DNA of 64,000 nucleotides from Polaribacter dokdonensis (GTDB lineage: Bacteria > Bacteroidota > Bacteroidia > Flavobacteriales > Flavobacteriaceae): NCBI RefSeq assembly GCF_024362345.1, contig NZ_CP101505.1, positions 2,315,501-2,379,500 of the forward strand, read 5' to 3'. Both the position numbers and the translations under genes were made by a program. The first letter of the stretch is position 1. Each line of letters begins with the position of its first letter. Of this stretch, positions 884-32,454 are shown piece by piece. The notes below the pieces were generated by a model. That model ran no database searches and was not told the DNA's origin. It was given only the letters and a program-made list of their open reading frames with translations.

Positions 884-913
884 TTGCATACTACAAAATA
901 AATATTATATTTG
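884..913 (+). promoter_or_regulatory. Bacteroidota-type promoter of the PL6 operon
   Basis: TTG at 884-886 and TATATTTG at 906-913 fit the Bacteroidota -33/-7 pattern (TTG, about 19 bp, TAnnTTTG). Transcription would start near 920, giving a leader of about 28 nt before the ATG at 948. The last three bases of the -7 box are also the first three bases of the operator described next. Confidence 0.6.
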
Positions 914-935
914 GTAAACCAAACTGGTCAACCAA
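911..935 (+). promoter_or_regulatory. Tandem operator, two TTGGTNNACCAA-type sites
   Basis: TTGGTAAACCAA (911-922) and CTGGTCAACCAA (924-935) are two near-palindromic 12-mers whose starts are 13 bp apart. They overlap the -7 box and cover the expected transcription start, which suits repression by blocking polymerase. The same element lies before four other units in this locus. It resembles the UxuR/ExuR hexuronate operator, so the GntR protein at 21737 is the likely ligand (inference). Confidence 0.7.
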
Positions 936-947
936 TTTATTTTATTT

Positions 948-3248
948 ATGAAACAGTTCTTTAAAATCTTCATTATATTTTTAGTGATTACTTCTTGTGA
1001 TGAGAAAAAATCTAATATTATAGTTAGTTCAACTTCAGAATTAACAGATGCACTTAGCAAAGCTGTAAAAGGTGATAATATTGTTCTTAAAAACGGAACA
1101 TATAAAGACGTAAACATAAAGTTTGTTGGAGAAGGAACAGAAGATGCCCCTATAACTTTAAGTGCAGAAACTGCAGGAGAAGTTTTTATAGAAGGAGAAT
1201 CTAGCCTGGAATTAAGTGGAAATTATTTGCAAGTAAGTGGTTTGTTTTTTAGAAATGGACATTCACCAAAAAAGAATGTAATCGCTTTCAGAACGAGTCC
1301 TAAAGATGTTGCAAATCATAGCTCAGTTACAAACTGTGTAATTCTAGATTTTAATAATTTAGAAAGAGACAAAGACAATCTTTGGGTTCAATTTTATGGT
1401 AAACACAATGAGTTAAGCAATTGTTATTTAGCAGGTAAAACCAATGGAGGACCAACTGTTAGAGTAGATTTAAAAGGAAATCAAAGTATAAGAAACTATC
1501 ATAAAATAGTAAATAATCATTTTGGACCAAGACCTAGAAAAGGTGGTGCAAGAGGAGAAACTATTCAGTTAGGTAGTAGTTTTACATCAATGTCACCTAG
1601 TAATACAACCATTGCAAATAATCTGTTTGAAGAATGTAATGGAGAGGTTGAAATTATATCAAGCAAGACCAACTTTAATATCATTAAAAATAATGTGTTC
1701 TATAAAAGTGAAGGTTCTGTAGTTACAAGACATGGAAATTATGTGTCTGTAGATGGTAATTATTTTATTGGTGATGGAGAAAATGAAAATTATGGAGGAA
1801 TTCGAATTATAAACACAGGTCATTGGGTAACCAACAACCTTTTCTACAAGATTAAAGGAAAGAATTTTAGAAGTCCGATTGCAATAATGAACGGAATTCC
1901 AAAATCTCCTTTAAACAGATACAACCAAGTAACAGACGTAGTTGTTGCTTATAATACATTTGTAGATTCAGATTCACCTTTTCAATTTGGAGTTGGTACT
2001 AACATTGCACAAGCAGCTGTGCTGCCAAAATCTGAAATTAGATCTGCAAGACCTTTAAGAACAGAGGTTGTAAATAATATAATTTACAATTCAGAAGGAG
2101 ATGCAAACCCTATTATAGAGCATGACAAAGCAGATGGTGTTACATTTAAAAGTAATGTAATAGACAATAATGGAGTAGCCATTGAAAATGATAAAGGCTT
2201 ATTGGTTAAAGATTTAACAGTAACAGATATTGGTAGCAATTTAGTTGTACCTGTAAATGGGTTTAGTGATGTTGAACCATATAATGGTTTCGATTTTGAT
2301 GTAATTACAGAAGATTTATTGGGAAAATCTAGAAAGAATAACAATCAAATTGGAGCGATTTTGAGTGATGAAAACATCAATCTAAACTTATTAGATAAAA
2401 CAAAATATGGAGCAGATTGGTTTTCTAACGAAGTTGAAGCTAAAGAAGCAACTACACACACTGTAGCTAGCGCTTCTGAACTTATAGAGAAATTAAATGC
2501 TGCAGAAAGTGGAGATATTATCGATCTAAAAGCAGGTAATTATCAATTAACAAATTCTCTTGTTGTCGATAAAACTATAACTATTCAATCTTCAGAAGAG
2601 GTTACCTTAATTTATAATGGAGCTGCAAACTCAGCTGCTTTTTTATTACAACCTTATGGAAAATTATTAGTAAAAAACATTAAGCTAAAAGGTGCAAACA
2701 CACAACATGCTTTTGCGACTTTAAAACAAAACATGTCTAACCATTTTGGATTAGAGGTTGTAGATTCTGAAATCAGTAATTTCAACTATGCCTTAAAGGT
2801 TTACAAACAAGCATTTTCAGAAGAAATTACATTTACAAATACAACAATTTCAAATTGTGAAAATGGTTTAGAATTATCTGAAGAAACCAATGATAGAGGA
2901 GATTACAATACAGAATATTTAACCGTAGATAATTGTACGTTTAACAATGTAAAACAAAATGTAATCGATTATTATAGAGGTGGTTATGATGAATCTACAA
3001 TTGGGGGTAATTTACTAGTACAAAACTCAACTTTCACAAATTGTGGAGCATCAGAAAAGAACAGAATTTTATTAAACACAAGAGGTATTATTAATGTTTC
3101 TATAAAAGACAATGTATTTCAAAATAATAAGGTAAAACTAATTGCTTTGTTATGGGGTGCAAAAAACAACTCGCATTCAAACAATACAATTTCGAATTCT
3201 GGTATCATTAAAACAGAAGAGAACTTGAAACAAACTTTAATGTATTAA
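948..3248 (+). CDS. PL6 family alginate lyase, surface lipoprotein
   Basis: A two-part right-handed beta-helix lyase of polysaccharide lyase family 6 (chondroitinase-B-like), 766 residues. A lipoprotein signal ends at Cys17 (ITSC), so it is probably anchored in the outer membrane. The catalytic helix (about residues 25-440) carries the family's active-site set: Glu233 and Glu235 in GEVEIIS, Lys240 as the Brønsted base and Arg261 in TRHGN. The 21-residue Lys-Arg spacing equals that of AlyGC (Lys220/Arg241). A second beta-helix begins at about residue 495, again with VASASELIEKLNAA as at the N-terminus. This two-domain form matches AlyGC-like PL6 enzymes, which act on alginate. It is the first gene of a tight + strand operon, 18 bp before a PL7 lyase. 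Endo or exo mode and M/G preference cannot be told from sequence. Confidence 0.93.
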   Translation: MKQFFKIFIIFLVITSCDEKKSNIIVSSTSELTDALSKAVKGDNIVLKNGTYKDVNIKFVGEGTEDAPITLSAETAGEVFIEGESSLELSGNYLQVSGLFFRNGHSPKKNVIAFRTSPKDVANHSSVTNCVILDFNNLERDKDNLWVQFYGKHNELSNCYLAGKTNGGPTVRVDLKGNQSIRNYHKIVNNHFGPRPRKGGARGETIQLGSSFTSMSPSNTTIANNLFEECNGEVEIISSKTNFNIIKNNVFYKSEGSVVTRHGNYVSVDGNYFIGDGENENYGGIRIINTGHWVTNNLFYKIKGKNFRSPIAIMNGIPKSPLNRYNQVTDVVVAYNTFVDSDSPFQFGVGTNIAQAAVLPKSEIRSARPLRTEVVNNIIYNSEGDANPIIEHDKADGVTFKSNVIDNNGVAIENDKGLLVKDLTVTDIGSNLVVPVNGFSDVEPYNGFDFDVITEDLLGKSRKNNNQIGAILSDENINLNLLDKTKYGADWFSNEVEAKEATTHTVASASELIEKLNAAESGDIIDLKAGNYQLTNSLVVDKTITIQSSEEVTLIYNGAANSAAFLLQPYGKLLVKNIKLKGANTQHAFATLKQNMSNHFGLEVVDSEISNFNYALKVYKQAFSEEITFTNTTISNCENGLELSEETNDRGDYNTEYLTVDNCTFNNVKQNVIDYYRGGYDESTIGGNLLVQNSTFTNCGASEKNRILLNTRGIINVSIKDNVFQNNKVKLIALLWGAKNNSHSNNTISNSGIIKTEENLKQTLMY

Positions 3249-3266: not shown

Positions 3267-4289
3267 ATGAAAAGATTACTCATACTTTCGCTTATAATTT
3301 TAATGGTTACTGCTTGTAAAAAAGATCAAGCAAAATCAGAAAATAAAGTTTCAGAAAAAGAAACTGCAATTAAATATCCAAATGATGTAATTCCGTTTAT
3401 GGACAAATGGAAAATTCTTTTAGGAGATGGAACTCGTTCAGATAGTTTAGTAAAGTTTCAAAAAGATAATTTCTTTTATGTACAAACAGATGATGTTGCA
3501 GATTGGGTGGTTTATAAAACACCAAATTCGGGTATAACTTCTAGAACATCTAGTAATACTAGAACAGAATTGGGTGAAAAACGTCATTGGATTCCAGAAG
3601 AAGGAGGTAAATTAACAGGTACTTTAAAAGTAATGCACGTTTCTACTACTGGAGATGCAAATGCAGCCTCTTCTTATTCAGTAGTTATTGGTCAAATTCA
3701 TAGTGATGAAGGTCATGAAAATGAACCGTTAAAAATCTATTACAAGAAATTTCCAGGGCATACTAAAGGCTCTGTTTTTTGGAACTATGAAATAAACACA
3801 GAAGGAGATAACATTGGTAGATTTGATTACTCAACTGCAGTTTGGGGTCATGATTTTTCTGTGGTTGGTAAAAACCCTACAGATTTTCCTCTAGAACCAG
3901 AAAATGGAATTGAACTTGGAGAAGAATTTAGCTATGAAGTTAATGTTCATGAAGGCATTATGTATTTAACTTTTACAAGCGAAAATCATGAAACTGTAAA
4001 GTTTGTAAAGAGTTTAGTAAAGTCAGAATTTACAACAAGAGCACAAGTTCCAGATCAAGTAAAAAGGGTTTATGCCAATAGAGAAAAAGGTGGTGGTGTA
4101 GAACGTGAAATAGCCTATGCAGGAGAAATAAATTACTTTAAACAAGGAGCTTACAATCAAGCTAATGCTAAAAGCACCAATTCAGAAGTTTATGGTGGAG
4201 ATATCAATAAACAATATGAAAATGGTAGTTATGCAGAGGTTTGGTTTAAAGAAGCAACTGTTGGTAAAAGCACCAAACCTTTAGAGTAG
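3267..4289 (+). CDS. PL7 family alginate lyase, lipoprotein (copy 1)
   Basis: 340 residues with a lipoprotein signal ending at Cys17 (MVTAC). The beta-jelly-roll catalytic domain of PL7 (alginate_lyase2 family) fills residues ~38-335. All three hallmark regions are present: RTEL at 99-102, QIH at 143-145 and YFKQGAYNQ at 290-298, giving the usual Gln/His/Arg/Tyr active site (Arg99, Gln143, His145, Tyr296). QIH rather than QVH often goes with guluronate-containing substrate, but that is only a tendency. It is a clear paralogue of the gene at 7489, and both share the long stretch around GHTKGSVFW. It lies 18 bp after PL6 and 5 bp before gluconokinase, so it is co-transcribed. Confidence 0.95.
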   Translation: MKRLLILSLIILMVTACKKDQAKSENKVSEKETAIKYPNDVIPFMDKWKILLGDGTRSDSLVKFQKDNFFYVQTDDVADWVVYKTPNSGITSRTSSNTRTELGEKRHWIPEEGGKLTGTLKVMHVSTTGDANAASSYSVVIGQIHSDEGHENEPLKIYYKKFPGHTKGSVFWNYEINTEGDNIGRFDYSTAVWGHDFSVVGKNPTDFPLEPENGIELGEEFSYEVNVHEGIMYLTFTSENHETVKFVKSLVKSEFTTRAQVPDQVKRVYANREKGGGVEREIAYAGEINYFKQGAYNQANAKSTNSEVYGGDINKQYENGSYAEVWFKEATVGKSTKPLE

Positions 4290-4294
4290 AATAG

Positions 4295-6179: not shown

Positions 6180-6197
6180 GAATTTAAAACAATACAA

Positions 6198-7472: not shown

Positions 7473-7488
7473 TGATAAAACAAAAATT

Positions 7489-8589
7489 ATGAATTTATAT
7501 AAAAAACACTCTACTAAAGTAATTATTGGCTTATTAGTTATTGTTCTTGCTACTGTTAGTTGTAAAAAAGCAATAGAGAAAACAAAAGATGTAAACGAAT
7601 CAAAAACAGTTTACGCAAGTGATGTTATTCCATTTTTTCAACATTGGAAACTTATTTTGGGTGATGGTTCTAATGTTGGTGTTCCAACCAATTTCGAAAA
7701 TAAAGAGTATTTCTATACGCAAACTGAAGGTGATAATAACTGGGTTGTTTTTAAAGCGCCAAATGGAGGTAACACTCATGGAACATCAAATAACACAAGA
7801 ACAGAATTAGCGCAGTTAAAAAAGTGGTATCCAAAAACGGCTGATGAAAAAATGACTGCTACTTTAAAAGTAATGAATGTTTCTGCTACTGGAGATGAAA
7901 CAGTTGCTGCAACACATTCTGTAGTTGTTGGTCAAATTCATAGTGCAGATAAGCATGAGAATGAACCTTTAAAAATTTTCTATAAAATTTATCCTGGTCA
8001 CACAAAAGGTTCTGTTTTTTGGCATTATGAAATTAATACCAAAGGTGATGATAATTCAGGCAGATGGGATTTTTCAACTGCAGTTTGGGGTCATGACTTT
8101 TCAGTAGTTGGTCCCTCAGCAACTGAAGTTCCAGCAGAACCAAAAGACGGAATTGCTTTAGGTGAGGAGTTTACCTACGAAGTTGAAGTAAAAGATGGTA
8201 TTATGAATTTAACGTTTAAAAGCGATAATCATGAAACAAAAACCTTTTCAAAAAACTTAATCGAATCAGAATACACTACTAAAGCAGAAATTCCTCAACA
8301 AACGAAAGAGTTGTTTTTTCCTATAGGTCAAGATGGGGTAGAGCGCAAAAATGCTTATGAAGGTGAAGGATGTTTTTTTAAGCTAGGTGCTTATAATCAA
8401 ACCAATGGAAAATCACCAGAAGTAAATAGAAATTGGTGTTCAGGAGCAGAAACATTTAATGGTGATGTTACAAAACAATATGAAACAGGCAATTATGTAG
8501 AGGTTTGGTTTAAATCTGGAAGTTTAAAGATTAGTGATAATGTAGTTTCTAACGAAGGCTATTTTTCAAAAAATGATAAAGTAAAATAA
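7489..8589 (+). CDS. PL7 family alginate lyase, lipoprotein (copy 2)
   Basis: 366 residues, lipoprotein signal ending at Cys25 (TVSC). The PL7 jelly-roll has RTEL at 104-107, QIH at 149-151 and FFKLGAYNQ at 296-304, so the active site (Arg104, Gln149, His151, Tyr302) is complete. It is paralogous to the gene at 3267 but has a longer C-terminal tail of about 20 residues (after VEVWFKSG) and an insertion near WCSGAETF. The duplicates are separated by gntK, gnd and the Nramp-like gene, so they did not simply arise as adjacent copies, or the cassette was inserted between them. It precedes the SDR by 13 bp. The two copies may differ in preferred block type or product size; that is inference. Confidence 0.95.
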   Translation: MNLYKKHSTKVIIGLLVIVLATVSCKKAIEKTKDVNESKTVYASDVIPFFQHWKLILGDGSNVGVPTNFENKEYFYTQTEGDNNWVVFKAPNGGNTHGTSNNTRTELAQLKKWYPKTADEKMTATLKVMNVSATGDETVAATHSVVVGQIHSADKHENEPLKIFYKIYPGHTKGSVFWHYEINTKGDDNSGRWDFSTAVWGHDFSVVGPSATEVPAEPKDGIALGEEFTYEVEVKDGIMNLTFKSDNHETKTFSKNLIESEYTTKAEIPQQTKELFFPIGQDGVERKNAYEGEGCFFKLGAYNQTNGKSPEVNRNWCSGAETFNGDVTKQYETGNYVEVWFKSGSLKISDNVVSNEGYFSKNDKVK

Positions 8590-8602
8590 TTTATTAAAAG
8601 AT

Positions 8603-9445: not shown

Positions 9446-9487
9446 TATTTTTGGAAACTAAGTTGGTAAACCAATTTGGTAAACCAA
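9446..9487 (+). promoter_or_regulatory. Promoter -7 box and tandem operator before the PL17 unit
   Basis: TATTTTTG at 9446-9453 fits the -7 consensus; I see no good TTG at the -33 distance. Downstream are two perfect TTGGTAAACCAA sites, 9463-9474 and 9476-9487, again 13 bp apart. Here the pair lies about 10 bp below the -7 box instead of overlapping it, and a half-site-like TTGGAAAC (9451-9458) sits in the overlapping position. The ATG follows at 9519. Confidence 0.65.
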
Positions 9488-9518: not shown

Positions 9519-11021
9519 ATGAAAAAAACATTACTTATAGTTTGCTTTACTTTAATAAGCGCATTATCATTTGGGCAGACCAATTTGGTTTTAAATGGAA
9601 CATGTGATATACATACAGTTCCTGATAATAAAGATAACGCTGATTCTTGGGATATGACTCCAAACTCAAAAATTATTGATGAATCTGGAGCAGAGATTGA
9701 TAGTCCTTACAGAGCACTTTGGAATAATTCAGATTTAGCTGATTGGCTTTCAACAGCAACTGGAGATAGTAATGAACAACCAGGTTCTTCTAGTGATGGA
9801 AACTGGGATTATTCAGCAGGTGCAGACCAAGGTGTAAAAACTGGTGGAGTTAAAATTAGTTCAGTAGGTCGTCGTTTATATCAATTAGTAGCTGTTGAAG
9901 CAGGAAAGGAATACACCTTTTCAATAGAATCTCGTTCTGAGGCTGAGAATGTACCATCGGATGTTTTTATTTTGAACACAGAAATAGCTTCAGAAGACGG
10001 TCTTACAGGTTCAAGCGCTACAGTAGATCACTATGTTCAAATTACTAATGATTTTAATTCAAGTAAATCGAATGCAACTACTAACAATTTCACAGTAACA
10101 ACCTTCGATTTTACTGCATCAACGAATCAAGTTGTAATATATGTAAGAGCTTCTGCAGCAGTAGATAGTTCTAATGAAGTTTTTTATGATAATATAAGTT
10201 TAGTTGAAAAGGCTGCATCATCTACAGGTACAGTAGTAACTCCAAGTACCACTACATTTGATTCTGGTTATATGAATGCTTTTAATTTAGATAATTCATT
10301 TGCATTTGGATTTGGTTATCCAGTAGCAGACATGAAAACAACACAAACTGCTACATCTGTAACATTACAGCCAAACTTTGCAATATGGACAGGTGAAGAT
10401 GGCAATGCTTCTTGGTTTGATACAAACCCAAAAACACCAAATAAATATGTTGATGCTAGTTCTTACACAGAAAGTAATACAGCTTATAATGGCGAAGACT
10501 TAACTTTTGAAGGTGTTGTTAATGTAGATAATTTAGATGATGCTTATACAGTTACAGCTTTCATAAAAGCATTAGATCCTAATTCTTTTGCAACTGTAGT
10601 TAACAAGACTGTTGAATTAACGGCTGCTGGGCAAGAATTTTCTGTTTCAGCTACAGCTGCAGAATTAGCTACAGGTTTAATCGTACAGTATGGTTTTAGC
10701 GTTGTTGGACCTCCTGCAGACCCAGCTAATGAAAGTGCTATAGGAAGTATTGTTGTTGGAGAACCTGGTACAGCATCTATAGATGATGTATTTGCATCTA
10801 AGGTTACCGTTTATCCTAACCCAGCCAATTCTTTTATAAATATTTCTTCTGCAGAAGCTATTTCAGGAGTAGAAGTTTACAATGTAATTGGTAAAAGAGT
10901 TTTACAAGTTACAAATGTTGTTAATAACAGCGTAGATGTATCTAGCTTATCAAAAGGAATGTATATTCTAAAAATAGCAAGTGGAGATTCAATTGCCACT
11001 AAAAAGATTATTAAGAACTAG
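9519..11021 (+). CDS. T9SS-secreted protein with candidate alginate-binding domain
   Basis: 500 residues. A Sec signal peptide (to about SFGQ, residue 20) is followed by a beta-rich domain (about 21-230), a second unrecognised domain (about 240-410) and a type A T9SS sorting domain (about 430-500: VYPNPANSFINIS and the terminal KGMYILKIASG). It is therefore exported and released or attached at the surface. The first domain closely matches the C-terminal domain of the PKD lipoprotein at 20097: both carry WDMTPNS, VDSPYRA or IDSPYRA, EQPGS, a GVK segment followed by RRLYQ, VFILN and NDFNSSKS. No catalytic motif is visible. Position before PL17 and KdgF under the shared operator suggests a carbohydrate-binding helper; this is inference. 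Confidence 0.8.
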   Translation: MKKTLLIVCFTLISALSFGQTNLVLNGTCDIHTVPDNKDNADSWDMTPNSKIIDESGAEIDSPYRALWNNSDLADWLSTATGDSNEQPGSSSDGNWDYSAGADQGVKTGGVKISSVGRRLYQLVAVEAGKEYTFSIESRSEAENVPSDVFILNTEIASEDGLTGSSATVDHYVQITNDFNSSKSNATTNNFTVTTFDFTASTNQVVIYVRASAAVDSSNEVFYDNISLVEKAASSTGTVVTPSTTTFDSGYMNAFNLDNSFAFGFGYPVADMKTTQTATSVTLQPNFAIWTGEDGNASWFDTNPKTPNKYVDASSYTESNTAYNGEDLTFEGVVNVDNLDDAYTVTAFIKALDPNSFATVVNKTVELTAAGQEFSVSATAAELATGLIVQYGFSVVGPPADPANESAIGSIVVGEPGTASIDDVFASKVTVYPNPANSFINISSAEAISGVEVYNVIGKRVLQVTNVVNNSVDVSSLSKGMYILKIASGDSIATKKIIKN

Positions 11022-13885: not shown

Positions 13886-13938
13886 TTGGTAAGTCGCAAA
13901 AAAAGATATATGTTTGGTAAACCAGTTTGGTAAACCAG
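13886..13938 (+). promoter_or_regulatory. Promoter and tandem operator of the main susCD unit
   Basis: TTG (13886-13888), 20 bp, then TATGTTTG (13909-13916) form a Bacteroidota promoter. Two identical sites TTGGTAAACCAG follow at 13914-13925 and 13927-13938, 13 bp apart, the first overlapping the -7 box by three bases as before the PL6 operon. The leader to the ATG at 14039 is about 115 nt. The bases around the -33 element (attacttg) also match those before the PL6 operon. Confidence 0.7.
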
Positions 13939-17269: not shown

Positions 17270-17275
17270 TTAATT

Positions 17276-21736: not shown

Positions 21737-22438
21737 ATGAAGTTAGAAACTCTAGCAAAACTAGATCAGAACCAAATTCAAAAAAAAATTATTTCACAAA
21801 TTCGTGATTTAATCAATTTTAAGAATTTAGAGCCAGGAGATAAATTACCTTCTGAGCGAATGCTAACCGAAAAATTCGGAGTTTCTAGAAGTAATATTAG
21901 AGAGGCCATAGAAAAGTTAGAGTTTTATGGGTTATTGAAATCTATTCCACAAAGTGGAACATTCGTTGCAAATATTGGGGTTATAGCTATGAATGGAATG
22001 ATTGAAGATATTTTAAGATTAGAAGATCCTGATTTTAAATCTTTAGTTGAAACAAGAATTTTATTAGAATTAAAAACAGTAAGGTTAGCAGCTACTAGAA
22101 GAACAGAGGAAGATTTAGAGAATATTGAAGAGGCTTTATACGCATATAAAGAAAAAGCCACGAATGGTGAAAACGCTGTACAAGAAGATTTGTTATTTCA
22201 TTTAGCAATTGCTAAAGCTAGTGGAAATAGTACTATGAATACATTCATGTTAATTATCATTCCAGAAATCATTACAAACTTTCAAAAATATCATGTTTGT
22301 GATGCTGGTTTAACCAAAAGAGGAATAGATGATCATCAAGCAATTTTTGATGCCATAAAGAATCAAGAGCCACAATTGGCAAAACAAAAAATGAAAGAGC
22401 ACTTTAAAGAGCTTTATCAATACTGTTATAGCAGTTAA
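21737..22438 (+). CDS. FadR-subfamily GntR regulator, probable hexuronate/alginate repressor
   Basis: 233 residues: N-terminal winged helix (about 12-80, with LPSERMLTEKFGVSRSNIREAI and the wing SGTFV) and a C-terminal FCD ligand domain (about 98-225). The FCD metal site residues are present: Asp151, His155, His200 and His222. FadR-type relatives include UxuR and ExuR, hexuronate repressors that bind TTGGTATACCAA-like palindromes. Tandem TTGGTNNACCAA sites occur at five promoters in this locus, and this is the only DNA-binding regulator encoded in it, so it is the likely reader. The inducer may be DEH, KDG or a related sugar acid (inference). The MFS transporter gene follows after 14 bp. Confidence 0.9.
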   Translation: MKLETLAKLDQNQIQKKIISQIRDLINFKNLEPGDKLPSERMLTEKFGVSRSNIREAIEKLEFYGLLKSIPQSGTFVANIGVIAMNGMIEDILRLEDPDFKSLVETRILLELKTVRLAATRRTEEDLENIEEALYAYKEKATNGENAVQEDLLFHLAIAKASGNSTMNTFMLIIIPEIITNFQKYHVCDAGLTKRGIDDHQAIFDAIKNQEPQLAKQKMKEHFKELYQYCYSS

Positions 22439-22452: not shown

Positions 22453-23754
22453 ATGAAGGTAAAAGGATTACGTTGGTGGGTTGTAGGGCTTGTAGCTTTA
22501 GCTGCTGTAGTAAATTATATAGACAGACAAGCATTTGGAGCTTTATGGCCAGATATTGCTAAAGACCTATTTCCAGAAATGGATGAAGATGGTCATAAAG
22601 CAATTTATGGTACAATATCTACTGTATTTATATTATCATATGCAGGTGGTCAAGCCTTATTTGGTAAAATATTTGATTGGATAGGTACTAGATTAGGTTT
22701 TGCCTTATCTATTGGTGTTTGGTCTGTAGCAACTATGTTACATGCAATTGCGCAAGGTGTTTTAAGTTTCTCCATATTTAGATCTCTTTTAGGTATTGCA
22801 GAAGCAGGTAACTGGCCAGGTGCAGCAAAAGCAAATGCAGAATGGTTTCCTACTAAAGAGCGTGCTTTAGCACAAGGAATTTTTAATTCTGGTGCTGCAA
22901 TTGGTGGTATTGTAGCTTATCCAATTATTGGTTTATTATCGGTATATTTTGCATGGAAAGCTATTTTTATTGTAGTTGGTATCTTAGGATTACTTTGGTT
23001 AATTCCATGGTTATTTATTGTTAAATCAGGGCCAAAAACACACCCTTGGTTATCTGAAGATGAAAAAAGTTACATTTTATTAGGTCAAAGAAATCAAGAT
23101 ATTGATGATGATGGTAATTATGATGAAGGTTATAATCCTAGTACAGGTAAATTATTAAAGCATAAAGAAAGTTGGGGAGTAATAATAGCTTCAGCAGCAA
23201 TCGACCCTATTTGGTGGTTATTTATAGTTTGGATTCCAATATACTTATCAGAAGTATTTGGTCTTAATGTAAAAGAAATTGCATTTTCTGCATGGTTACC
23301 TTATGTAGGTGCTATGATAGGAGCTTGGGCTGGTGGTTTATTAGCTCAGAACAGATTAAATGTAGGTTGGTCTGTAGATAAGACAAGAAAATATATAATT
23401 ACACTTGGTTGTTTAATTATGATTCCATGCTTCTTTTTATTAAAAGCACCAGGATCAGCAACAAATGCAGTTATTATAATGGCTGTTTTGTTATTTGGTT
23501 TTCAAGTAGCAATTGGTAACATTCAAACAATACCTAGTGATATTTTTAGCGGTAAAATTGTGGGTACATTATCTGGTTTTGCAGGTATGGCTGCAAAGTT
23601 AGGTGCTGCAGGATTAACAATTTTAGTAACTTTTATTACAACAGGAGGTAATTATACTCCAGCCTTCTTAATTGGTGGAGCATTAGCAATTATAGCTTTA
23701 TTAGCAATTTGGATTTTATGTCCGAAAATAGAACCAATTAGAGAAGCAAATTAA
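22453..23754 (+). CDS. MFS transporter, ExuT-like hexuronate permease (anion:cation symporter family)
   Basis: 433 residues with twelve predicted membrane segments. The start RWWVVGLVALAAVVNYIDRQAFG, of which NYIDR is diagnostic, and the loop AEAGNWPGAAKANAEWFPTKERALAQG are typical of the anion:cation symporter branch that includes hexuronate transporter ExuT. It most likely carries unsaturated or linear monouronates across the inner membrane for the cytoplasmic KdgF and SDR steps. The order GntR, MFS, SDR is tight (14 and 37 bp), as in other flavobacterial alginate operons from general knowledge. Exact substrate is not readable from sequence. Confidence 0.9.
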   Translation: MKVKGLRWWVVGLVALAAVVNYIDRQAFGALWPDIAKDLFPEMDEDGHKAIYGTISTVFILSYAGGQALFGKIFDWIGTRLGFALSIGVWSVATMLHAIAQGVLSFSIFRSLLGIAEAGNWPGAAKANAEWFPTKERALAQGIFNSGAAIGGIVAYPIIGLLSVYFAWKAIFIVVGILGLLWLIPWLFIVKSGPKTHPWLSEDEKSYILLGQRNQDIDDDGNYDEGYNPSTGKLLKHKESWGVIIASAAIDPIWWLFIVWIPIYLSEVFGLNVKEIAFSAWLPYVGAMIGAWAGGLLAQNRLNVGWSVDKTRKYIITLGCLIMIPCFFLLKAPGSATNAVIIMAVLLFGFQVAIGNIQTIPSDIFSGKIVGTLSGFAGMAAKLGAAGLTILVTFITTGGNYTPAFLIGGALAIIALLAIWILCPKIEPIREAN

Positions 23755-23791
23755 ATAAGAATCAGTTCATAAAATTATAAATATTAGAAAA

Positions 23792-24556
23792 ATGAGTAAA
23801 GCGCAAGGACAATTAGCAATAGTAACTGGTGCCACAGGTGGTATAGGTTTTGCAGTTGCAAAAAGATTAGGTAACGAAGGATATACAGTTATTTTAAATG
23901 GTATAGATGATGATGCAGGAGCAGAAAGATTAAAAGAATTACAAGATGCTGGTATCGAAGCTGATTACTATGGTTTTGATGTAACTGATGAAAATGCAGT
24001 AACTTCTAACATCACTAAAATTGGTGAAAAATATGGTAAGATAGATGTACTAGTAAACAATGCTGGTGGTTTAGGAGGTAGATCTCGTTTTGAAGAGATG
24101 ACTACAGATTTCTACAGATTTGTAATGGCTTTAAATTTAGATTCAACATTTTTTGCATCTAGAGCAGCAATTCCTTTCTTAAAGAAAAGTGATAATCCTT
24201 CAATTATAAATTATACATCAAATGCTGGTTGGAATGCAGGTGGACCAGGTGCAGGTATCTATGGTACATCTAAGGCAGCTGTTCATGCAATTACAAGAGC
24301 ATTAGCAAAAGATTTGGCTGAATATCAAATTAGAGTAAATGCAGTATCTCCAGGTACTATTGATACTGATTTTCATAAACAAATTAAATCTACGAAGCCA
24401 GAAGTTTTTAAATCTTGGGCTAACAACATTATGTTAGGTAGATTAGGTCAACCAGAAGATGTTGCTGGTGTTGTAGCATTTTTAGCAAGTAAAGATGCAG
24501 CTTTCATTACTGCAGAAACTATTCAAGTTGGTGGTGGTCAAGCCTTAGGTATTTAA
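23792..24556 (+). CDS. SDR-family reductase, probable DEH reductase
   Basis: 254 residues. Classical SDR motifs: TGATGGIG (12-19), NNAG (89-92), catalytic Ser143, Tyr157 and Lys161. In alginate degraders an SDR of this kind reduces DEH to 2-keto-3-deoxygluconate using NAD(P)H; the flavobacterial enzyme FlRed is an SDR. The context, last gene after GntR and the uronate permease, makes this the better DEH reductase candidate of the two SDRs in the window. After the second beta strand the sequence is LNGIDD, with an acidic residue two positions past the Gly, which could favour NADH, but I would not rely on that. A strong terminator follows directly. Confidence 0.85.
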   Translation: MSKAQGQLAIVTGATGGIGFAVAKRLGNEGYTVILNGIDDDAGAERLKELQDAGIEADYYGFDVTDENAVTSNITKIGEKYGKIDVLVNNAGGLGGRSRFEEMTTDFYRFVMALNLDSTFFASRAAIPFLKKSDNPSIINYTSNAGWNAGGPGAGIYGTSKAAVHAITRALAKDLAEYQIRVNAVSPGTIDTDFHKQIKSTKPEVFKSWANNIMLGRLGQPEDVAGVVAFLASKDAAFITAETIQVGGGQALGI

Positions 24557-24787: not shown

Positions 24788-24865
24788 TTGCACGAATCTA
24801 AAAAAAGCATATATTTGGAAAACCAATCTGGTAAACCAGTATGGTAAACCAAATTGGTTCTCCAG
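24788..24865 (+). promoter_or_regulatory. Promoter with four-site operator array of the second susCD unit
   Basis: TTG (24788-24790), 19 bp, TATATTTG (24810-24817) form the promoter. Four related 12-mers follow at strict 13-bp steps: TTGGAAAACCAA (24815-24826), CTGGTAAACCAG (24828-24839), ATGGTAAACCAA (24841-24852) and TTGGTTCTCCAG (24854-24865). The second is a good dyad; the fourth is degenerate in the middle. The first overlaps the -7 box by three bases, the same register as at 911, 13914 and 32449. It is the longest array in the window and may give tighter or more graded control. Confidence 0.75.
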
Positions 24866-25028: not shown

Positions 25029-28000
25029 ATGAAACTAAAACTGAAATTAACATTACTATTTGTATTGTTAGTAAGCTTTTGCAATTACGCACAAGAAGCT
25101 TACACTCTTAAAGGTAAAGTAACTACAGAAGTAGACAATGAAATTTTACCAGGAGTTTCTATTGTTGTTCAAGGAAGCACAGTAGGAACCGAAACTGATT
25201 TTGATGGTAACTATTCTATCAAAGTTAAGCAAGGTGATGTGTTGGCATTTTCTTATTTAGGTTATGCTACCAAAACCATAACTATTACTAATCAAAAAAC
25301 ATTAAACGTAACTTTAGCTGAAGATTCAAGTGCTTTAGATGAAGTTGTTGTTGTTGGTTATGGTAGTAGAAAAAGATCTCAGATAACTGGAGCTGTTGCC
25401 AAAATTGGTGGTGGTGAAGTTGCAGCTGTACAAGCGGTTCGTGTGGACGACGCTTTAGCTGGTAAATTAGCTGGGGTATTAATTCAGAATCAAGATGGTT
25501 CTCCAGGTGCTGCTCCAAAAATTCAAATTAGAGCTGCATCATCAATTTCAGGGGCTTCTAACCCTTTGATTGTTGTAGATGGATACCCTATTTCTGGTGG
25601 TTTAGAAACTGTTAACCCAAATGACATTAAAAGTTTAGAGATCTTAAAAGATGCAGCTTCTGCAGCTATTTATGGTTCTAGGGGTGCAAATGGTGTTGTA
25701 TTAGTTACTACTAAAAAGGGTTCTTCAGGTAAGACTACTTTTAGCTATAATGCTTACACAAGTATTTCAAATAAATACAGAGAAAATATTTTAATGTCTG
25801 GTCCTGAATGGGCTGCACATTCAAGAGCTCAAATTGCAGCTGGTAATTGGACAAGTACAGTTAACTTAGTAGACCCTGCATTTTTAGAGTACAGATTAAG
25901 TGCATATGAAAATTCTCCTGGAGCAATTAGTCCAGAAGACTGGTTATTCCAAACAGGTTCTACAACTGCTCACGATTTTAGCATGAGTGGTGGTAATGAA
26001 GGTACTAAGTACTATGCATCTGTTGGTTACCAAGATGCAGAAGGTGTTGTACAAACTCAAGGTTTTGAAAGATTAAATGCACGTTTAAATGTTGATGCTA
26101 CTTTAGGTGATAAATTTAAAGCAGGAATTAGCTTTAATGGTTTTGTATCTAAAAGAGATATTTTAGGACATGACATGAGAGATTTATTAAGAGCATATGG
26201 TGTGCACTCAATTTATCATACTGCAGAGTCTATTGCATTTGTACAACAATTAGATCAACAAGCACAAGCTTTAGGTTTAGCTGCTTTTGATAATGGATAT
26301 AGAGGTTCTACTTACGAAGCAAGTAGTATTTATGATTTAGAGCCAGGAATGGCTGCACAAGATTGGCATTATGGTAGAGCTAACAATGGTATTGGTGGTT
26401 CTGGAGATGCAGGTCCTGCAGCAAAGCTTGATAATGTAGAAAGCTGGCAAAAGACATTCTTCGGAAATGTAAATACATATTTACAGTATAACATACTAGA
26501 AGGATTAAACATCAAAACTGTTTTAGGTGGAGATATGAGAGATACACAAACTTATTCTCATAGATTATTAGGTTTTGACTCAAGAGCAAGAGATTCTCAA
26601 ACATTTATGGATCAGGCAGATTTAAAAATTTCTACTGTATTAAGTGAAACTACATTAAACTTTGCTAGAACTATTGGTAAACATGATATATCTGCAGTAG
26701 TAGGTGTAGAATTCCAAAATACAAAGTTTGTAGGTACAAGATTAGATGGAGCAAACGTTCCAGATGAAGCTGTATTAAACTATAACTTATTCGATCCAGC
26801 AGATATTACAGTAACTGAAAGAGATGAAACAAGAGTAAGAGAAAGTGTATTTGGTAGAGTAAATTATTCTTTCGATGATCGTTTCTTATTAACTGCTTCT
26901 TTAAGAAGAGATGGTGACTCTAGATTTGGAGCAAACAATAGATATGAAACATTCCCTGCAGTATCTGTAGGTTGGAATTTACATAATGAATCATTCTTAC
27001 AAGACAATGAAACTTTAAGTAGATTAAAATTAAGATTTAGTACAGGTTCTTTAGGTACAACATCTTTCTTAGGTTCTTATGATTCATTAAGTTTATTAGA
27101 TCCTTCTGCAACGATTTATGGAACAGGATACTTAATTCCATCTAACTCTGCTAACCCAGATTTAACATGGCAAACAAATACTGAAACTAACTTTGGTGTA
27201 GATTTAGGATTCTTCAACAATCGTTTTACAGTTGGTTTAGATTACTATACATCTGATATTGAAGATATCTTAATTAACCAAGCACAATCAGAAGTATTAG
27301 GTAACCCAACTTCTATTCTTAATGTTGGTGATGTAAGAAGTTCAGGTTTCGAATTTGAATTTTCAGGTAACTTAGTTAATCAAGCAGATTTCTCTTGGAA
27401 TGCGAGTGCAAACTTATCTACTGTAAATACAGAAATTACAGACTTAGGAGGTTTAGATGAATTACCACAACAAATTTTTGGACAAAGTGGTAGAGGACCA
27501 GTATTTAGAAACTACGTAGGTGGTGGAATTGGTGAAATGTGGGGATTAGAAACTATTGGTGAAGTAGAAATGGAATACTTAGCTGATGGATCTAGACACC
27601 CAAACAATCAAAGTGGTGAGTCTTATGTTGTAGATCAAAATGGAGATGGTATCATTGACAGAACAAGAACTGTTGAAGATGGTGGAGATTTAGTAAAAAT
27701 CGGTCAGAATACACCAGACTTTTACTGGGGTATGTCTCAGAACTTTAGATACAAGAAATTCGATATGTCTTTCCAATTACAAGGTTCTCATGGTGCAGAA
27801 GTGTATAATATAGATCCACTTTACTATGGTTCTCAATGGGGAGGTAGATTAGACTATGCACGTTTAGATGCAAATGGAGATGGTATTGCTGATCATAATG
27901 GAGAATATTATGAAAGAAACAGAAACCAAACTGATGCTATGATTCAAGATGCTTCTTATGTTGCATTAAGAAACTTAACAATTGGTTATACAATGGATGA

Positions 28001-28196
28001 AGTTGCAAGTAGAATCGGTTTAAACTCTATTAGATTATATGGAGCAGCAACTAACTTACTTTACATTATGGCAAGCGATTATACTTCTTATAACCCAGAA
28101 GGTGTTAATACTACAGACCCAACAGTTTATGGTGCTCAAGTAGGTGCTAGCCCAATTGTTAGAAGTTTTACAATTGGTTTAAATGTTAAATTTTAA
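25029..28196 (+). CDS. susC: SusC/RagA-type TonB-dependent outer membrane transporter (2)
   Basis: 1055 residues from ATG 25029, which starts a clean Sec signal (MKLKLKLTLLFVLLVSF, ending near NYAQ). A GTG eleven codons upstream (24996) would put a poor extension before the signal. CarboxypepD_reg-like domain (about 22-100), plug with DEVVVVGYG, LAGKLAGVLIQ, and a barrel ending LNVKF. It differs clearly from the first SusC in the barrel, for example in the loop with ANNGIGGSGDAGPAA, so a different oligomer size or block type is plausible. It shares the operator type with the alginate genes and is followed by its SusD after 11 bp. Confidence 0.95.
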   Translation: MKLKLKLTLLFVLLVSFCNYAQEAYTLKGKVTTEVDNEILPGVSIVVQGSTVGTETDFDGNYSIKVKQGDVLAFSYLGYATKTITITNQKTLNVTLAEDSSALDEVVVVGYGSRKRSQITGAVAKIGGGEVAAVQAVRVDDALAGKLAGVLIQNQDGSPGAAPKIQIRAASSISGASNPLIVVDGYPISGGLETVNPNDIKSLEILKDAASAAIYGSRGANGVVLVTTKKGSSGKTTFSYNAYTSISNKYRENILMSGPEWAAHSRAQIAAGNWTSTVNLVDPAFLEYRLSAYENSPGAISPEDWLFQTGSTTAHDFSMSGGNEGTKYYASVGYQDAEGVVQTQGFERLNARLNVDATLGDKFKAGISFNGFVSKRDILGHDMRDLLRAYGVHSIYHTAESIAFVQQLDQQAQALGLAAFDNGYRGSTYEASSIYDLEPGMAAQDWHYGRANNGIGGSGDAGPAAKLDNVESWQKTFFGNVNTYLQYNILEGLNIKTVLGGDMRDTQTYSHRLLGFDSRARDSQTFMDQADLKISTVLSETTLNFARTIGKHDISAVVGVEFQNTKFVGTRLDGANVPDEAVLNYNLFDPADITVTERDETRVRESVFGRVNYSFDDRFLLTASLRRDGDSRFGANNRYETFPAVSVGWNLHNESFLQDNETLSRLKLRFSTGSLGTTSFLGSYDSLSLLDPSATIYGTGYLIPSNSANPDLTWQTNTETNFGVDLGFFNNRFTVGLDYYTSDIEDILINQAQSEVLGNPTSILNVGDVRSSGFEFEFSGNLVNQADFSWNASANLSTVNTEITDLGGLDELPQQIFGQSGRGPVFRNYVGGGIGEMWGLETIGEVEMEYLADGSRHPNNQSGESYVVDQNGDGIIDRTRTVEDGGDLVKIGQNTPDFYWGMSQNFRYKKFDMSFQLQGSHGAEVYNIDPLYYGSQWGGRLDYARLDANGDGIADHNGEYYERNRNQTDAMIQDASYVALRNLTIGYTMDEVASRIGLNSIRLYGAATNLLYIMASDYTSYNPEGVNTTDPTVYGAQVGASPIVRSFTIGLNVKF

Positions 28197-28207
28197 AAAA
28201 TAATAAG

Positions 28208-29530
28208 ATGAGAAAAATATATATATTACTAGCTGCGCTGTTTATTGCAACAGCATGTGACTCAGATTTAGATCAAGCACCACCAAATTTAGCAAGTGCG
28301 GATTCTTTAACTGACTTTTCAGGAGTATTAAACGCAGCATACTACTATCAATTAGGAAGTGTAACACCATTAGCAGTAATGGGTGAGTTTAGATCAGATA
28401 ATGCAGTAATGGATGAGGCTCCATATACAGAATTCGATGTTTTTACAGCGAACTTAACAACTATGGAAGACCAATTTTTTGGGCCACTATATACTGCAAT
28501 GTACAAGTCTATTTTAAGTGCGAACAATGTAATCGAAAATTCTACAGACGCAACAGAAATAGCAGAAGCTAAGTTTTTAAGAGCTTTATCTTATTACAAA
28601 TTAGTAAAGTCTTTTGGAGCAGTAACTGTGAATTTAGAAGCTTCTCCAAGTTTAACAGATACATCAATTTTAGCTAGAGTTCCAGCTATGGATGTTTACA
28701 ACAATGTTGTAATTCCAGATTTAAATGATGCTATCTCTGCATTATCAACTACTATTACCAATGGTAGAGCATCTAAATTTGCTGCTCAAGCATTATTAGG
28801 TAAAGTATATGCAGCAATGGGTAACTATGCAAGTGCAGCTTCAAGTTTAGGAGCTGTTGTAAATGGAGCTTCAGCTGCTGGTATTAGCTTAGAAGCAAAC
28901 TTTAGCGATGTTTTTGGATTTGCAAATGAAGGAAATTCAGAGATTATTTACGCTACTCAAGTTTCTAGTTCAATTGTAGACGAATATGGTTTTGGTTCAG
29001 ATTTCTGGAACTGGTTTGTAGGTGATGACTCTAAAGCAGATTTTCCTGTAGATTCAGATTTGGTTGCAGCTTTTGATGCAAGTGATGCAACAGGTGCTAC
29101 AGATTTAAGAAGAGCTGTTACTTTAGATGCTGCAGGAACTACAGCTATTAAATTTCCAAAGGATGGTGGAAATGGAGGAGAACATGATTGGATTGAAATT
29201 AGATTAGGAGATGTTATCTTATTATATGCAGAAGCTTTAAATGAAAATGGAGATACTGCAGGTGCTTTAACGCAACTTAATAAAATAAGAAACAGAGCAG
29301 GTTTAGCAAATTCTACAGCAACTTCACAAGCTGATGTAAGAACTGCTATCTTAAACGAAAGAAGATTAGAGTTAGCCTTTGAAGGTCATAGATGGGATGA
29401 TTTAGTAAGAACTAATACTGTAGACGCAGAAATGGGTACTACTGTAAATAGTAACTACTACTTATTTCCAATTCCAATTTCTGAAATATTAGCAACTGGT
29501 GGTGTTATTACACAAAATGCTGGGTACTAG
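28208..29530 (+). CDS. susD: SusD/RagB-type surface glycan-binding lipoprotein (2)
   Basis: 440 residues, shorter than the first SusD (531). Lipoprotein signal ending in IATAC. SusD features include AKFLRALSYYKLVKSFG, DWIEIRLGDVILLYAEALNE and LNERRLELAFEGHRWDDLVR (TPR-like scaffold). It pairs with the SusC 11 bp upstream. No SusE-like protein or enzyme follows in this unit, which ends with a strong terminator 30 bp on. Regulation through the four-site operator ties it to the alginate locus; substrate is inferred. Confidence 0.94.
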   Translation: MRKIYILLAALFIATACDSDLDQAPPNLASADSLTDFSGVLNAAYYYQLGSVTPLAVMGEFRSDNAVMDEAPYTEFDVFTANLTTMEDQFFGPLYTAMYKSILSANNVIENSTDATEIAEAKFLRALSYYKLVKSFGAVTVNLEASPSLTDTSILARVPAMDVYNNVVIPDLNDAISALSTTITNGRASKFAAQALLGKVYAAMGNYASAASSLGAVVNGASAAGISLEANFSDVFGFANEGNSEIIYATQVSSSIVDEYGFGSDFWNWFVGDDSKADFPVDSDLVAAFDASDATGATDLRRAVTLDAAGTTAIKFPKDGGNGGEHDWIEIRLGDVILLYAEALNENGDTAGALTQLNKIRNRAGLANSTATSQADVRTAILNERRLELAFEGHRWDDLVRTNTVDAEMGTTVNSNYYLFPIPISEILATGGVITQNAGY

Positions 29531-30024: not shown

Positions 30025-32418
30025 TTAGTTTTTAGTTTGAATAAGTCCAATATCTTCTATATCATTATTGGATTTTAATAAAGGTGATTTTTTACTTGGT
30101 ATAAATAAGTTTTTATCATCCCATTTTGGACTTCTATAAATAAGATTCACACTTTTTGCTCCATTATTTACTTTAATTTTACCACATAAATTTATAAGAC
30201 TATTTTCTATAATATTGTCTTTACCATATAAACTGACAGGTGTTTTAATTTTGTAGCTGTTTTCAAAAACTGAGTTTTTTATGATTACAGTTGGTATTGA
30301 TTTTAATCGAATAATATTTCCTTTTTCACTGTTGTTTACATTACTAAAAACAGAGTTGCTTATTACTAATTTAGCAGGACTGTTATTAATTAACGGACCA
30401 GTTTTTACATAGTTAATCGCAAATTCATCAATATTATCAAAAACAGTATTGTGTATTAAAATAGTGTTCGCATTATATTTTGCAAAATTATTTTTTTCAT
30501 AAGATAAGTTTAAGCCTCTATAACTGTCTTTAAATGTTGAGTTTCTAATGCTAATAGTATCAGCTAGAGTACCAACGTAAGCTTTGTAAATGCTACCTCC
30601 ATTAGTATTAGTAAAGTTTTGAAATGTACAATTATCTACAAATAAATTATAAGTTTCACTTAACTGTTTGTCTGGAGAAACTACTGCATATTTTACTTTG
30701 GTATCATTATCACCATCTATAATTAGATTTTGTAATCTTAGTGTGGCATTTTCCTGAACTCTAAAAAAATAGTTTAGGGCTTTAGGTAAATCATCATTTG
30801 CTTTAATAATGGTTTTAGCTGAACCTTTAATAGTAATATCACCTTTAATTTTCTGTGTTTTATCTATAAAATAAATACCATCTGTTAAAACCATTGTTGT
30901 TTTAGCAGTCGCTTTTTTTAACGCTTTTGCAAAAGTATTTGTACCAGGTTCAACTTTAATTTCTTTTTCTTTAATAACAACTTCTGGTACTTCAATTACA
31001 GGTTTCCAATAAGGACCAGTTCTAATTAATAATGCTTTTGGAAATCTTTTGTTTCCAAGATTAAAAGCACCTGCTACCAATTCTTTTCTTGGATAGCCTA
31101 CAATATCTTTTTCAGGGCTTGCATTATCTTTATAATTAGATATTAAACTTGGATTATTGGCAGTTGGCATTGGTATTGACTGCAATAATTTCCAATCTAC
31201 AGTTTGTTTTTGAAAAATTGCAGCATCTGCAGATGCACTTGAATCTAAAATATTTTTAAAGAATTTAATACCACTAATGTCATCAGAAATTTCTAAAACT
31301 TCACTACCATCTGTATTGGTTACTAAATTATTTGCAAAAATTGAATTGATAGGAGGTAGGCTTCTTTCATCATCTTTACCAGCTCCAAGTGCAATTGGTC
31401 CACAATTAATTATGGTATTGTTCTGCACATTTACATTTTTTACTTGATTATATCTGTTTAAAGGCGAGTTTGGCACTCCATTCATAATAACAATTGGCCC
31501 TCTAAAACCATCACCCTTTAAACCTATTAGCAAGTTGTTTCTAACTATATGTCCTTCGTTTATAATTCGAATTCCACCTGTTCTTTTTACATTATTACCA
31601 ATAAAAACATTGTCTTCTACAAGTGCATTATTTCCATGTCTTAAGGTTAATGTTCCTTGGCTCTCTACAAATAAGTTGTTTCTAAAAATATTGTCTGCAG
31701 ATTTGTTAGAAATGATTTCTATTTCACCATCACAATTTTGAAAGGTATTATTTTCTACAATTGTTTTTGATGATTTCATAGAATTAGCACTTGTACCAAT
31801 TCTAATTGTTTCTCCACCATTTGTACCTAATTCAGGTCTTTTACCAAAAAAATTATGATCTATTTGATGATTATTCTCAACATGTTCTTCACCTTTAAGC
31901 CATACAACTAAAGTTGTACCATCATTAGTTTTACCTGTAAAATTATTATGATCTACTCTATTGTTTTTTCCCCATAAATCTACCCAATGAGAATTTATGC
32001 TAGTATCTTCTGGGTTATAATAAGAAATTGTGTTGTGAGTAAATCTACAGTTATTGGCAAATTCTTTAGAATTTTTACGAAACTGCACTATTGATTTTTT
32101 GGTAGGGTTACCATCTTTAAACCATAGGCCTTCTACAATAATATAAGTACCATATATTTTAATTGATGAGTTACCAGCTAAAATAACTTCACCAGCTTTT
32201 TCTGCTTTAATAGTAATTGGTTGTGCTTCTGTACCTGCACCAAAAGCTTCTAAACTTACATCTGTCCAAACACCATTTTTAAGTACAATAGTAGTACCAG
32301 CAGTTGCCTTTTTAATAGCAACATTATATTCTGTGGTATTAGAAACTAAAATTTCCTGTTGAGCAAAACAGAAAGTTGTTAGAAAAATAAGGGTTAAAGT
32401 AAAAATTGAATTTCTCAT
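30025..32418 (-). CDS. PL6 family alginate lyase, secreted (copy 2)
   Basis: 797 residues from ATG 32418. An in-frame ATG at 32436 lies inside the operator and would put MVNHLI before the signal peptide MRNSIFTLTLIFLTTFCFAQ, so it is rejected. The signal is Sec type I without a lipobox Cys, unlike the lipoprotein PL6 at 948. Active-site set: GEIEIIS with Lys239, and Arg260 in LTLRHGN, 21 residues apart as in AlyGC. A second beta-helix begins around residue 490. No T9SS domain is visible, so it is probably periplasmic. It stands alone, convergent with the second susCD pair, with its own operator. The two PL6 enzymes thus likely act in different compartments. Confidence 0.93.
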   Translation of the reverse strand: MRNSIFTLTLIFLTTFCFAQQEILVSNTTEYNVAIKKATAGTTIVLKNGVWTDVSLEAFGAGTEAQPITIKAEKAGEVILAGNSSIKIYGTYIIVEGLWFKDGNPTKKSIVQFRKNSKEFANNCRFTHNTISYYNPEDTSINSHWVDLWGKNNRVDHNNFTGKTNDGTTLVVWLKGEEHVENNHQIDHNFFGKRPELGTNGGETIRIGTSANSMKSSKTIVENNTFQNCDGEIEIISNKSADNIFRNNLFVESQGTLTLRHGNNALVEDNVFIGNNVKRTGGIRIINEGHIVRNNLLIGLKGDGFRGPIVIMNGVPNSPLNRYNQVKNVNVQNNTIINCGPIALGAGKDDERSLPPINSIFANNLVTNTDGSEVLEISDDISGIKFFKNILDSSASADAAIFQKQTVDWKLLQSIPMPTANNPSLISNYKDNASPEKDIVGYPRKELVAGAFNLGNKRFPKALLIRTGPYWKPVIEVPEVVIKEKEIKVEPGTNTFAKALKKATAKTTMVLTDGIYFIDKTQKIKGDITIKGSAKTIIKANDDLPKALNYFFRVQENATLRLQNLIIDGDNDTKVKYAVVSPDKQLSETYNLFVDNCTFQNFTNTNGGSIYKAYVGTLADTISIRNSTFKDSYRGLNLSYEKNNFAKYNANTILIHNTVFDNIDEFAINYVKTGPLINNSPAKLVISNSVFSNVNNSEKGNIIRLKSIPTVIIKNSVFENSYKIKTPVSLYGKDNIIENSLINLCGKIKVNNGAKSVNLIYRSPKWDDKNLFIPSKKSPLLKSNNDIEDIGLIQTKN

Positions 32419-32424
32419 AATCAA

Positions 32425-32454
32425 GTGGTTTACCAATTTGGTAAACCAAATATA
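32425..32454 (-). promoter_or_regulatory. Promoter -7 box and tandem operator of the minus-strand PL6
   Basis: On the minus strand TATATTTG (32454-32447) is followed by TTGGTTTACCAA (32449-32438) and TTGGTAAACCAC (32436-32425), 13 bp apart, the first overlapping the -7 box by three bases. The last site ends 6 bp before the ATG at 32418. No clear -33 TTG is seen at the standard distance. The shared element shows that this outlying gene belongs to the same regulon. Confidence 0.7.

Follow-up and report, generated by a model that had tools for sequence, protein, structure and literature searches.

The alginate locus of Polaribacter dokdonensis lies in a 64,000-nucleotide stretch of contig NZ_CP101505.1 (positions 2,315,501 to 2,379,500; hereafter, the window), where it carries five tandem arrays of the 12-bp dyad TTGGTNNACCAA, every step being exactly 13 bp. 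We consider it very probable (roughly 88%) that these arrays are the operators of the FadR-type GntR regulator encoded at 21737, likely the ortholog of AusR of Zobellia galactanivorans, and that this protein acts as a repressor. An earlier sequence-only reading of the window had placed sites with 13-bp steps at five promoters, and the window scan found all of them. The arrays are given below (PL, polysaccharide lyase family; T9SS, type IX secretion system).

911..935, plus strand: operator array, two units at 13 bp, before a PL6-type lyase gene (ATG at 948)
9463..9487, plus strand: operator array, two exact units, before the T9SS-tagged protein and PL17-type genes; outside the fused promoter register described below
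9450-9461, plus strand: degenerate third unit of the 9463 array, with three mismatches, preceding the exact pair
13914..13938, plus strand: operator array, two units with one mismatch each, before SusC/SusD pair 1
24815..24865, plus strand: operator array, four units (1, 2, 1, and 2 mismatches), before SusC/SusD pair 2
32425..32449, minus strand: operator array, two units, before the second PL6-type lyase gene (ATG at 32418, minus strand)

Dyad units without mismatch stand at 911, 9463, 9476, and 32438, units with one mismatch at 924, 13914, 13927, 24815, 24841, and 32425, and units with two at 24828 and 24854. At up to two mismatches, the window holds 80 single dyads, compared with a mean of 42.2 (standard deviation 6.7, maximum 67) in 100 shuffles; because the shuffles reach such a mean, an isolated site at this threshold carries little weight.

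The phased pair TTGGTNNACCAANTTGGTNNACCAA is far more specific. When the complete genome (3.09 Mb) was scanned with it at up to three mismatches, 10 places were found, all within seven arrays, and the reversed pattern, which served as the control, gave none. The five promoters named previously are therefore genuine members of the set, though the set was not complete: the earlier reading overlooked two distant arrays, at G000:C1:856938 (no mismatch) and 2979297 (one mismatch), as well as the fusion of most arrays to the -7 box. The gene after the first encodes an 896-residue protein with a Chondroitinas_B (PL6-type) domain, and that after the second a T9SS-sorted protein of 354 residues, which matches Polysacc_lyase weakly (27.3 bits, under the cut-off of 29.9). 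Dispersed alginate-type genes (PL6-type at 856.9 kb, lyase-like at 2979.3 kb) thus carry phased arrays at the sequence level, and all seven arrays precede lyase-type genes, SusC genes, or the T9SS-protein/PL17 unit. A gene for a GH16-type (glycoside hydrolase family 16) T9SS-sorted protein (L025:3853-4899) ends directly before the distant PL6 array.

Exact single dyads number 18 genome-wide versus eight for the reversed control, and seven of them lie inside arrays. None of the other 11 has a 13-bp neighbour with fewer than five mismatches; 10 fall in open reading frames and one is intergenic (L035:2993). Removal of the linker base from the phased-pair pattern leaves a single match in the genome, with three mismatches and outside the arrays.

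The same arrangement recurs in relatives, for which we used the best 80 of 424 GntR-encoding loci (1.55 Mb) from named Flavobacteriaceae, including Polaribacter, Winogradskyella, Kordia, Psychroserpens, Maribacter, Aquimarina, Tenacibaculum, and others. The best GntR match of the 21737 protein, at 91% identity, comes from a Polaribacter metagenome-assembled genome. Exact dyads occur 161 times in the 80 loci versus 2 to 5 times in five Markov controls, and exact pairs no more than 80 bp apart are spaced exclusively at 13 (34 pairs), 26 (14), or 39 bp (2). Allowing one mismatch gives distances of 13 (120), 26 (24), and 39 bp (2), plus one pair at 33 bp, while the Markov controls contain no exact pair and 0 to 2 pairs at one mismatch, none of them at 13 bp. 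A chance origin of the arrays was rejected on these controls, together with the shuffles and the empty reversed control.

An array at one mismatch per unit was found in 68 of the 80 loci. The next downstream gene of the 100 arrays involved is most commonly SusC (56), followed by PL17 (10) and major facilitator superfamily (MFS) transporter genes (10), T9SS-protein or lyase-like genes (8), PL6 (6), GntR (3), and PL7 (2), with no gene within 600 bp of the remaining five. The upstream regions of PL6, PL7, and PL17 genes, where the sequence-only reading had proposed to look for 13-bp-spaced pairs in related genomes, do contain them. The five arrays with no recognised gene within 600 bp (L076:263, L081:1701, L106:13294, L129:15953, and L149:20404, of which the first and last have three units) were left out of the register and unit-number counts; the remaining 95, with the seven of P. 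dokdonensis, make 102 arrays. Arrays in L119, L126, L139, L145, and L147 were set to the minus strand by hand, as a lyase-like gene lies there, and that in L112 was assigned to the minus strand by rule.

The position of the arrays relative to the promoter is equally regular. A transcription start site map of Flavobacterium psychrophilum places TAnnTTTG at -12 to -5 (PMC9723704). This motif starts exactly 5 bp 5' of the array, on the coding strand, in 88 of 102 cases (82 of 95 in relatives and six of seven in P. dokdonensis); on the opposite strand, that offset has it in 6 of 102. The fusion takes the form of TAnnT joined to TTGG, so that unit 1 and the sigma-A -7 box have TTG in common. The arrays at 911, 13914, 24815, and 32449 and both distant arrays are fused in this way; the boxes in the window are as follows.

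906..913, plus strand: -7 box TATATTTG overlapping unit 1; possible -33 TTG at 884-886, with a 19-bp spacer
13909..13916, plus strand: -7 box TATGTTTG fused to unit 1; TTG at 13886-13888, with a 20-bp spacer
24810..24817, plus strand: -7 box TATATTTG fused to unit 1; TTG at 24788-24790, with a 19-bp spacer
32447..32454, minus strand: -7 box TATATTTG fused to unit 1

The shorter string TAnnT is found at -5 in 86 of 100 arrays versus 0 to 28 at other offsets (28 at -9, 26 at -7, and 21 at -24), and TTG lies 19 bp 5' of the -7 box in 43 of 86. In the 88 of 95 arrays whose estimated distance to the gene is positive, that distance is anywhere between 13 and 384 bp; the arrays are therefore tied to the promoter rather than the start codon. 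Read on the coding strand, the centre of unit 1 is AA in 78 of 102 arrays and TT in eight; given this bias, the operator is oriented by the promoter. Among the 12 loci lacking an array, SusC is preceded in L092, L111, L116, L117, L127, and L137 by a fused site, the next unit of which stands at two mismatches, and L088, L108, and L132 are short contigs without a SusC start.

A 29-bp pattern, TAnnTTTGG fused to two phased cores, matches six of the seven arrays in the P. dokdonensis genome perfectly and no other place; allowing one mismatch adds a single, unrelated place. Should other genomes behave alike, raw Flavobacteriaceae sequence could be enough to recognise alginate regulons along with their dispersed genes. 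From the fusion to the -7 box and the F. psychrophilum rule, unit 1 is predicted to span about -7 to +5, unit 2 +7 to +18, and unit 3 +20 to +31, which would set the bound protein over the start point. Such a site over the -7 box is consistent with repression by the predicted repressor and offers a directly testable picture of how a marine polysaccharide utilization locus is shut off.

The candidate regulator can be described in one line.

21737..22438, plus strand: FadR-type GntR regulator, putative AusR, with a GntR helix-turn-helix and an FCD domain (PF00392 and PF07729, both above cut-off)

No other DNA-binding regulator was found among 46 Pfam-scanned proteins, 43 of them from the window, which bears out the earlier view of this protein as the only such regulator in the locus; the window scan also returned a histidine kinase at 61047 and a GreA/GreB-type factor at 60018. 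The assignment of the 21737 protein to the UxuR/ExuR branch did not survive, since the NCBIfam scores fall far under the equivalog cut-offs (UxuR, 67.4 vs 442 bits; ExuR, 63.9 vs 396) and below those for LldR (127) and NanR (118.6, cut-off 260), which themselves fail. UxuR operators are usually isolated sites, unlike the tandem arrays of Polaribacter, and the targets of the seven arrays are lyase-type, SusC, and T9SS-protein/PL17 genes, not genes of hexuronate catabolism. What the two do share is the FadR subfamily and a 2-nucleotide centre in the sites.

The link between this regulator and the arrays comes from their joint occurrence. GntR was detected in 94 of 298 evenly drawn Flavobacteriaceae genomes (completeness 95% or more; GntR cut-off 1e-60), and the phased pair, at up to two mismatches, in 95; the pair is present in 94 of 94 genomes with GntR versus 1 of 204 without it (G105). 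In a genus set of 36 genomes, congeners of the window's source (GntR cut-off 1e-30), the figures are 12 of 12 versus 3 of 24. All 23 within-genus contrasts, scored by eye, agree, so shared ancestry alone is insufficient to explain the association; this agreement follows from G105 being both the sole discordant genome and the lone member of its genus in the draw. With its two domains and this near-perfect co-occurrence, the protein at 21737 appears, as first proposed, to be the best candidate regulator of arrays that look like operators.

Co-occurrence also bears on the possibility that no protein-binding code is involved and that the 13-bp repeats arose by simple tandem duplication or serve as a structural element of DNA or RNA. 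Slippage can create short tandem repeats, and hairpins might form from the dyad in the leader; this explanation is nonetheless highly improbable. The dyad cores are kept while the centres and the linker base vary (partly an effect of selection, as arrays were picked at one mismatch per unit), the arrays stay fixed to the -7 box over the whole range of gene distances, and their presence follows one regulator across 298 genomes. On the varying centres and linker and on the regulator co-occurrence, we rejected tandem duplication and an RNA element.

Several observations weigh against our interpretation and should be kept in mind. The gntR gene of P. dokdonensis has no site of its own, in that no dyad at up to two mismatches occurs within 19704-22306, and the same is true of its MFS neighbour. 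The 9463 array is out of the fused register, the closest TAnnTTTG being at 9446-9453; the register is missing in 14 of 102 arrays overall, and no fused SusC site was found in 3 of the 12 array-less loci (L089, L120, and L141). The 94 positive genomes include three (G130, G247, and G288) whose sole GntR match has 48-55% identity, and the 12 of the genus set include G004, which is positive through a 53% paralog alone. The reversed pattern matches once each in 37 of the 298 family genomes (by eye) and in 1 of 36 congeners, and among family genomes without GntR it is found in 23 of 204 (by eye) versus 1 of 204 for the forward pattern; a lone pair with two mismatches is therefore weak evidence. Conversely, four genomes have the pair with no detected GntR: G012 and G029 (drafts, 67% and 53% complete), G035 (complete, one pair with two mismatches), and G105. 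A search at 1e-5, which included these four and two pair-less GntR-negative genomes and no positive genome, gave no GntR match. Finally, all 77 family genomes with a PL17 match are also GntR-positive, and since the two co-occur so closely, presence alone leaves room for another regulator of alginate genes.

These last two points favour the idea that a different regulator, encoded outside the locus, binds the dyads, and that GntR merely belongs to the same alginate gene set, as in most genomes GntR and PL17 cannot be separated. We regard this as improbable. The phased pair is present in all 17 GntR-positive family genomes without a PL17 match, and the dyad agrees with the FadR-subfamily consensus TKGT/ACMA with the 2-nucleotide centre of the UxuR-like groups, as given by Suvorova et al. 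2015 (PMC4494728). Fused sites or arrays also stand before gntR itself in several species, either as a single fused unit (L081, L115, L128, and L131) or as an array (at three of the 100 arrays of the 80 loci, and with three units in L152, L153, and L157), and paralogous GntR genes adjoin arrays with a 13-bp step. In L152:4498-4535 and L153:5185-5222 (genomes G130 and G288, where the sole GntR match is distant, at 55%), a three-unit fused array precedes gntR, which is followed by SusC, SusD, and lyase genes.

Two paralogs were encountered. A second GntR (about 53% identical to the 21737 protein) lies in congeners inside an operon for gluconokinase, phosphogluconate dehydrogenase, Nramp, PL7, and short-chain dehydrogenase/reductase (SDR) proteins, where it sits between Nramp and PL7 (L154:1241-7067, L157:108-5900, L161:62-5879, and L162:20-5441); the counterpart operon in the window (3267-9367) is without it. 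A third paralog (61%), in G021, is preceded by a 13-bp array (L157:19460-19497) with AC or GC centres rather than the usual AA, TA, or TT, so the step is kept while the centre changes. Another 13-bp-step array with AC or GC centres occurs at L157:14758-14782. It is possible that arrays centred in this way constitute a paralog-specific operator.

Control of alginate genes by a GntR protein has been described before. Dudek et al. 2020 (NAR 48:7786) is reportedly the original paper on the AusR regulon, in Zobellia galactanivorans. According to sections of two further papers, AusR is a GntR repressor of alginate genes whose operators occur in single, double, or triple copies and whose repression is relieved by alginate breakdown intermediates (PMC7874173, PMC8286568), with most alginate genes repressed and alyA7 excepted (PMC8286568); Zobellia alginate loci are described in part of PMC8073546. 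The sequence-only reading had presented an alginate regulator-operator code as new for Bacteroidota, a claim left unsupported by these sections. The Polaribacter system is, on the present sequence comparison, most likely an AusR regulon, thus of a known kind, real, and widespread; what may be new in it is the strictness of the 13-bp step, the fusion to the promoter, and the grading by unit number.

The resemblance to AusR extends to three features. The GntR gene lies within the alginate locus, here among PL6-, PL7-, and PL17-type lyases, SusC/SusD, MFS, and SDR genes; the promoter operators come in multiple copies, with two-unit arrays and one four-unit array here and one to four units per site in relatives; and control appears to extend to dispersed alginate genes, as suggested by the two distant arrays. 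Zobellia is a different genus, and the four-unit array of Polaribacter exceeds the triple copies in the sections on AusR cited above. There is no Zobellia record among the best 80 of the 424 GntR loci, and a literature search with the literal dyad strings returned only papers unrelated by title.

NanR of Escherichia coli is a further FadR-type GntR protein with adjoining repeats as sites. As described in sections of PMC8012715, three NanR dimers repress from side-by-side positions on neighbouring GGTATA repeats, with cooperativity through a 32-residue N-terminal extension. The Polaribacter arrays consist of full palindromes in contrast to these repeats, and an extension of NanR length is absent from the 21737 protein, because profile position 13 is already aligned with NanR residue 31. 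Suvorova et al. 2015 report a weaker half-site 7-12 nucleotides from the dyad centre in 13 FadR-subfamily groups, and their taxonomy table, as read, contains no Bacteroidetes FadR-type regulator (PMC4494728). The 13-bp step would place the next half-site at about 7.5-11.5 nucleotides, which is similar; the neighbour here is, unlike theirs, a complete palindrome, sometimes repeated three to four times.

The arrays, the step, the promoter register, and the co-occurrence are direct observations at the sequence level; binding, repression, effector, and cooperativity are what we infer from them in the following model. When alginate breakdown products are absent, GntR dimers would occupy the tandem dyads, unit 1 sharing TTG with the sigma-A -7 box and enclosing the start point, and unit 2 lying just downstream. 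Because the units cover the -7 box and the start point, the bound dimers would either obstruct RNA polymerase or keep the promoter from opening. An intermediate derived from alginate, perhaps 4-deoxy-L-erythro-5-hexoseulose uronate (DEH), 2-keto-3-deoxygluconate (KDG), or an unsaturated oligomer, would then bind the FCD domain and release the repressor. The model predicts a joint response of seven promoters, which belong to the two SusC/D pairs, three PL6-type genes, the lyase-like gene, and the T9SS-protein/PL17 unit.

The same GntR protein might instead activate transcription from the arrays, or be a dual regulator that also acts as a roadblock. FadR-type regulators are capable of two-way effects, and arrays of three to four units would reach deep into the leader, given the predicted span of unit 3. 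We find this unlikely, if slightly less so than an outside regulator: in 88 of 102 arrays unit 1 lies on the -7 box and presumably over the start point, where a bound protein normally excludes polymerase, and AusR of Zobellia is published, in the sections cited above, as a repressor (PMC8286568).

How repression by GntR would be graded is a more tentative matter. Three or more units are found at 23 of 56 SusC promoters versus 0 of 39 others (Fisher 8e-7, a generous value since the loci are related), which suggests a graded response, and the 13-bp step raises the question of how GntR dimers that sit on different faces of the DNA can pack next to one another. One might picture a multi-dimer filament of the AusR type, advancing by about 86 degrees per 13-bp unit and locked to the sigma-A -7 box, with the operator as part of the core promoter and unit number setting the tightness of shut-off; we would give this somewhat less than even odds. 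This picture would accord with single units at some gntR promoters, pairs at most genes for enzymes and transporters, and up to four units at SusC, though the unit-number rule is a loose one, since in L152, L153, and L157 a GntR gene follows an array of three units. If true, the AusR type would join NanR as a multi-dimer GntR repressor, the second of its kind and one lacking the NanR extension, and the Flavobacteriaceae would have a family-wide promoter-operator unit.

Altogether, the locus has lyase genes of PL6 type (two), PL7 type (two), and PL17 type (one), along with genes for a KdgF-like cupin, two SDR proteins, an MFS transporter, two SusC/SusD pairs, and the one FadR-type GntR. Its main genes are as follows.

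948..3248, plus strand: PL6-type lyase (Chondroitinas_B Pfam family)
3267..4289, plus strand: PL7-type alginate lyase (Alginate_lyase2)
7489..8589, plus strand: PL7-type alginate lyase (Alginate_lyase2)
9519..11021, plus strand: T9SS-sorted protein, function unassigned
11108..13369, plus strand: PL17-type lyase (Alginate_lyase and Hepar_II_III_C)
13385..13762, plus strand: KdgF-like cupin (Pfam Cupin_2; the KdgF label is our own)
14039..18871, plus strand: SusC/SusD pair 1 (TonB-dependent receptor and SusD family)
22453..24556, plus strand: MFS transporter and SDR protein, the latter a putative DEH reductase from its context
25029..29530, plus strand: SusC/SusD pair 2 (TonB-dependent receptor and SusD family)
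30025..32418, minus strand: second PL6-type lyase (Chondroitinas_B)

Between the two PL7-type genes (window 4295-7472) lie genes for a gluconokinase (TIGR01313) and an NADP 6-phosphogluconate dehydrogenase (TIGR00873), both above cut-off, together with an Nramp-family protein. The T9SS-sorted protein at 9519-11021 and a PKD protein at 20097-21575 have a similar stretch near SWDMTPNSKIIDESG and AWDMTPNSTIKDNSG, with no Pfam match to it, which is perhaps a common module of the two.

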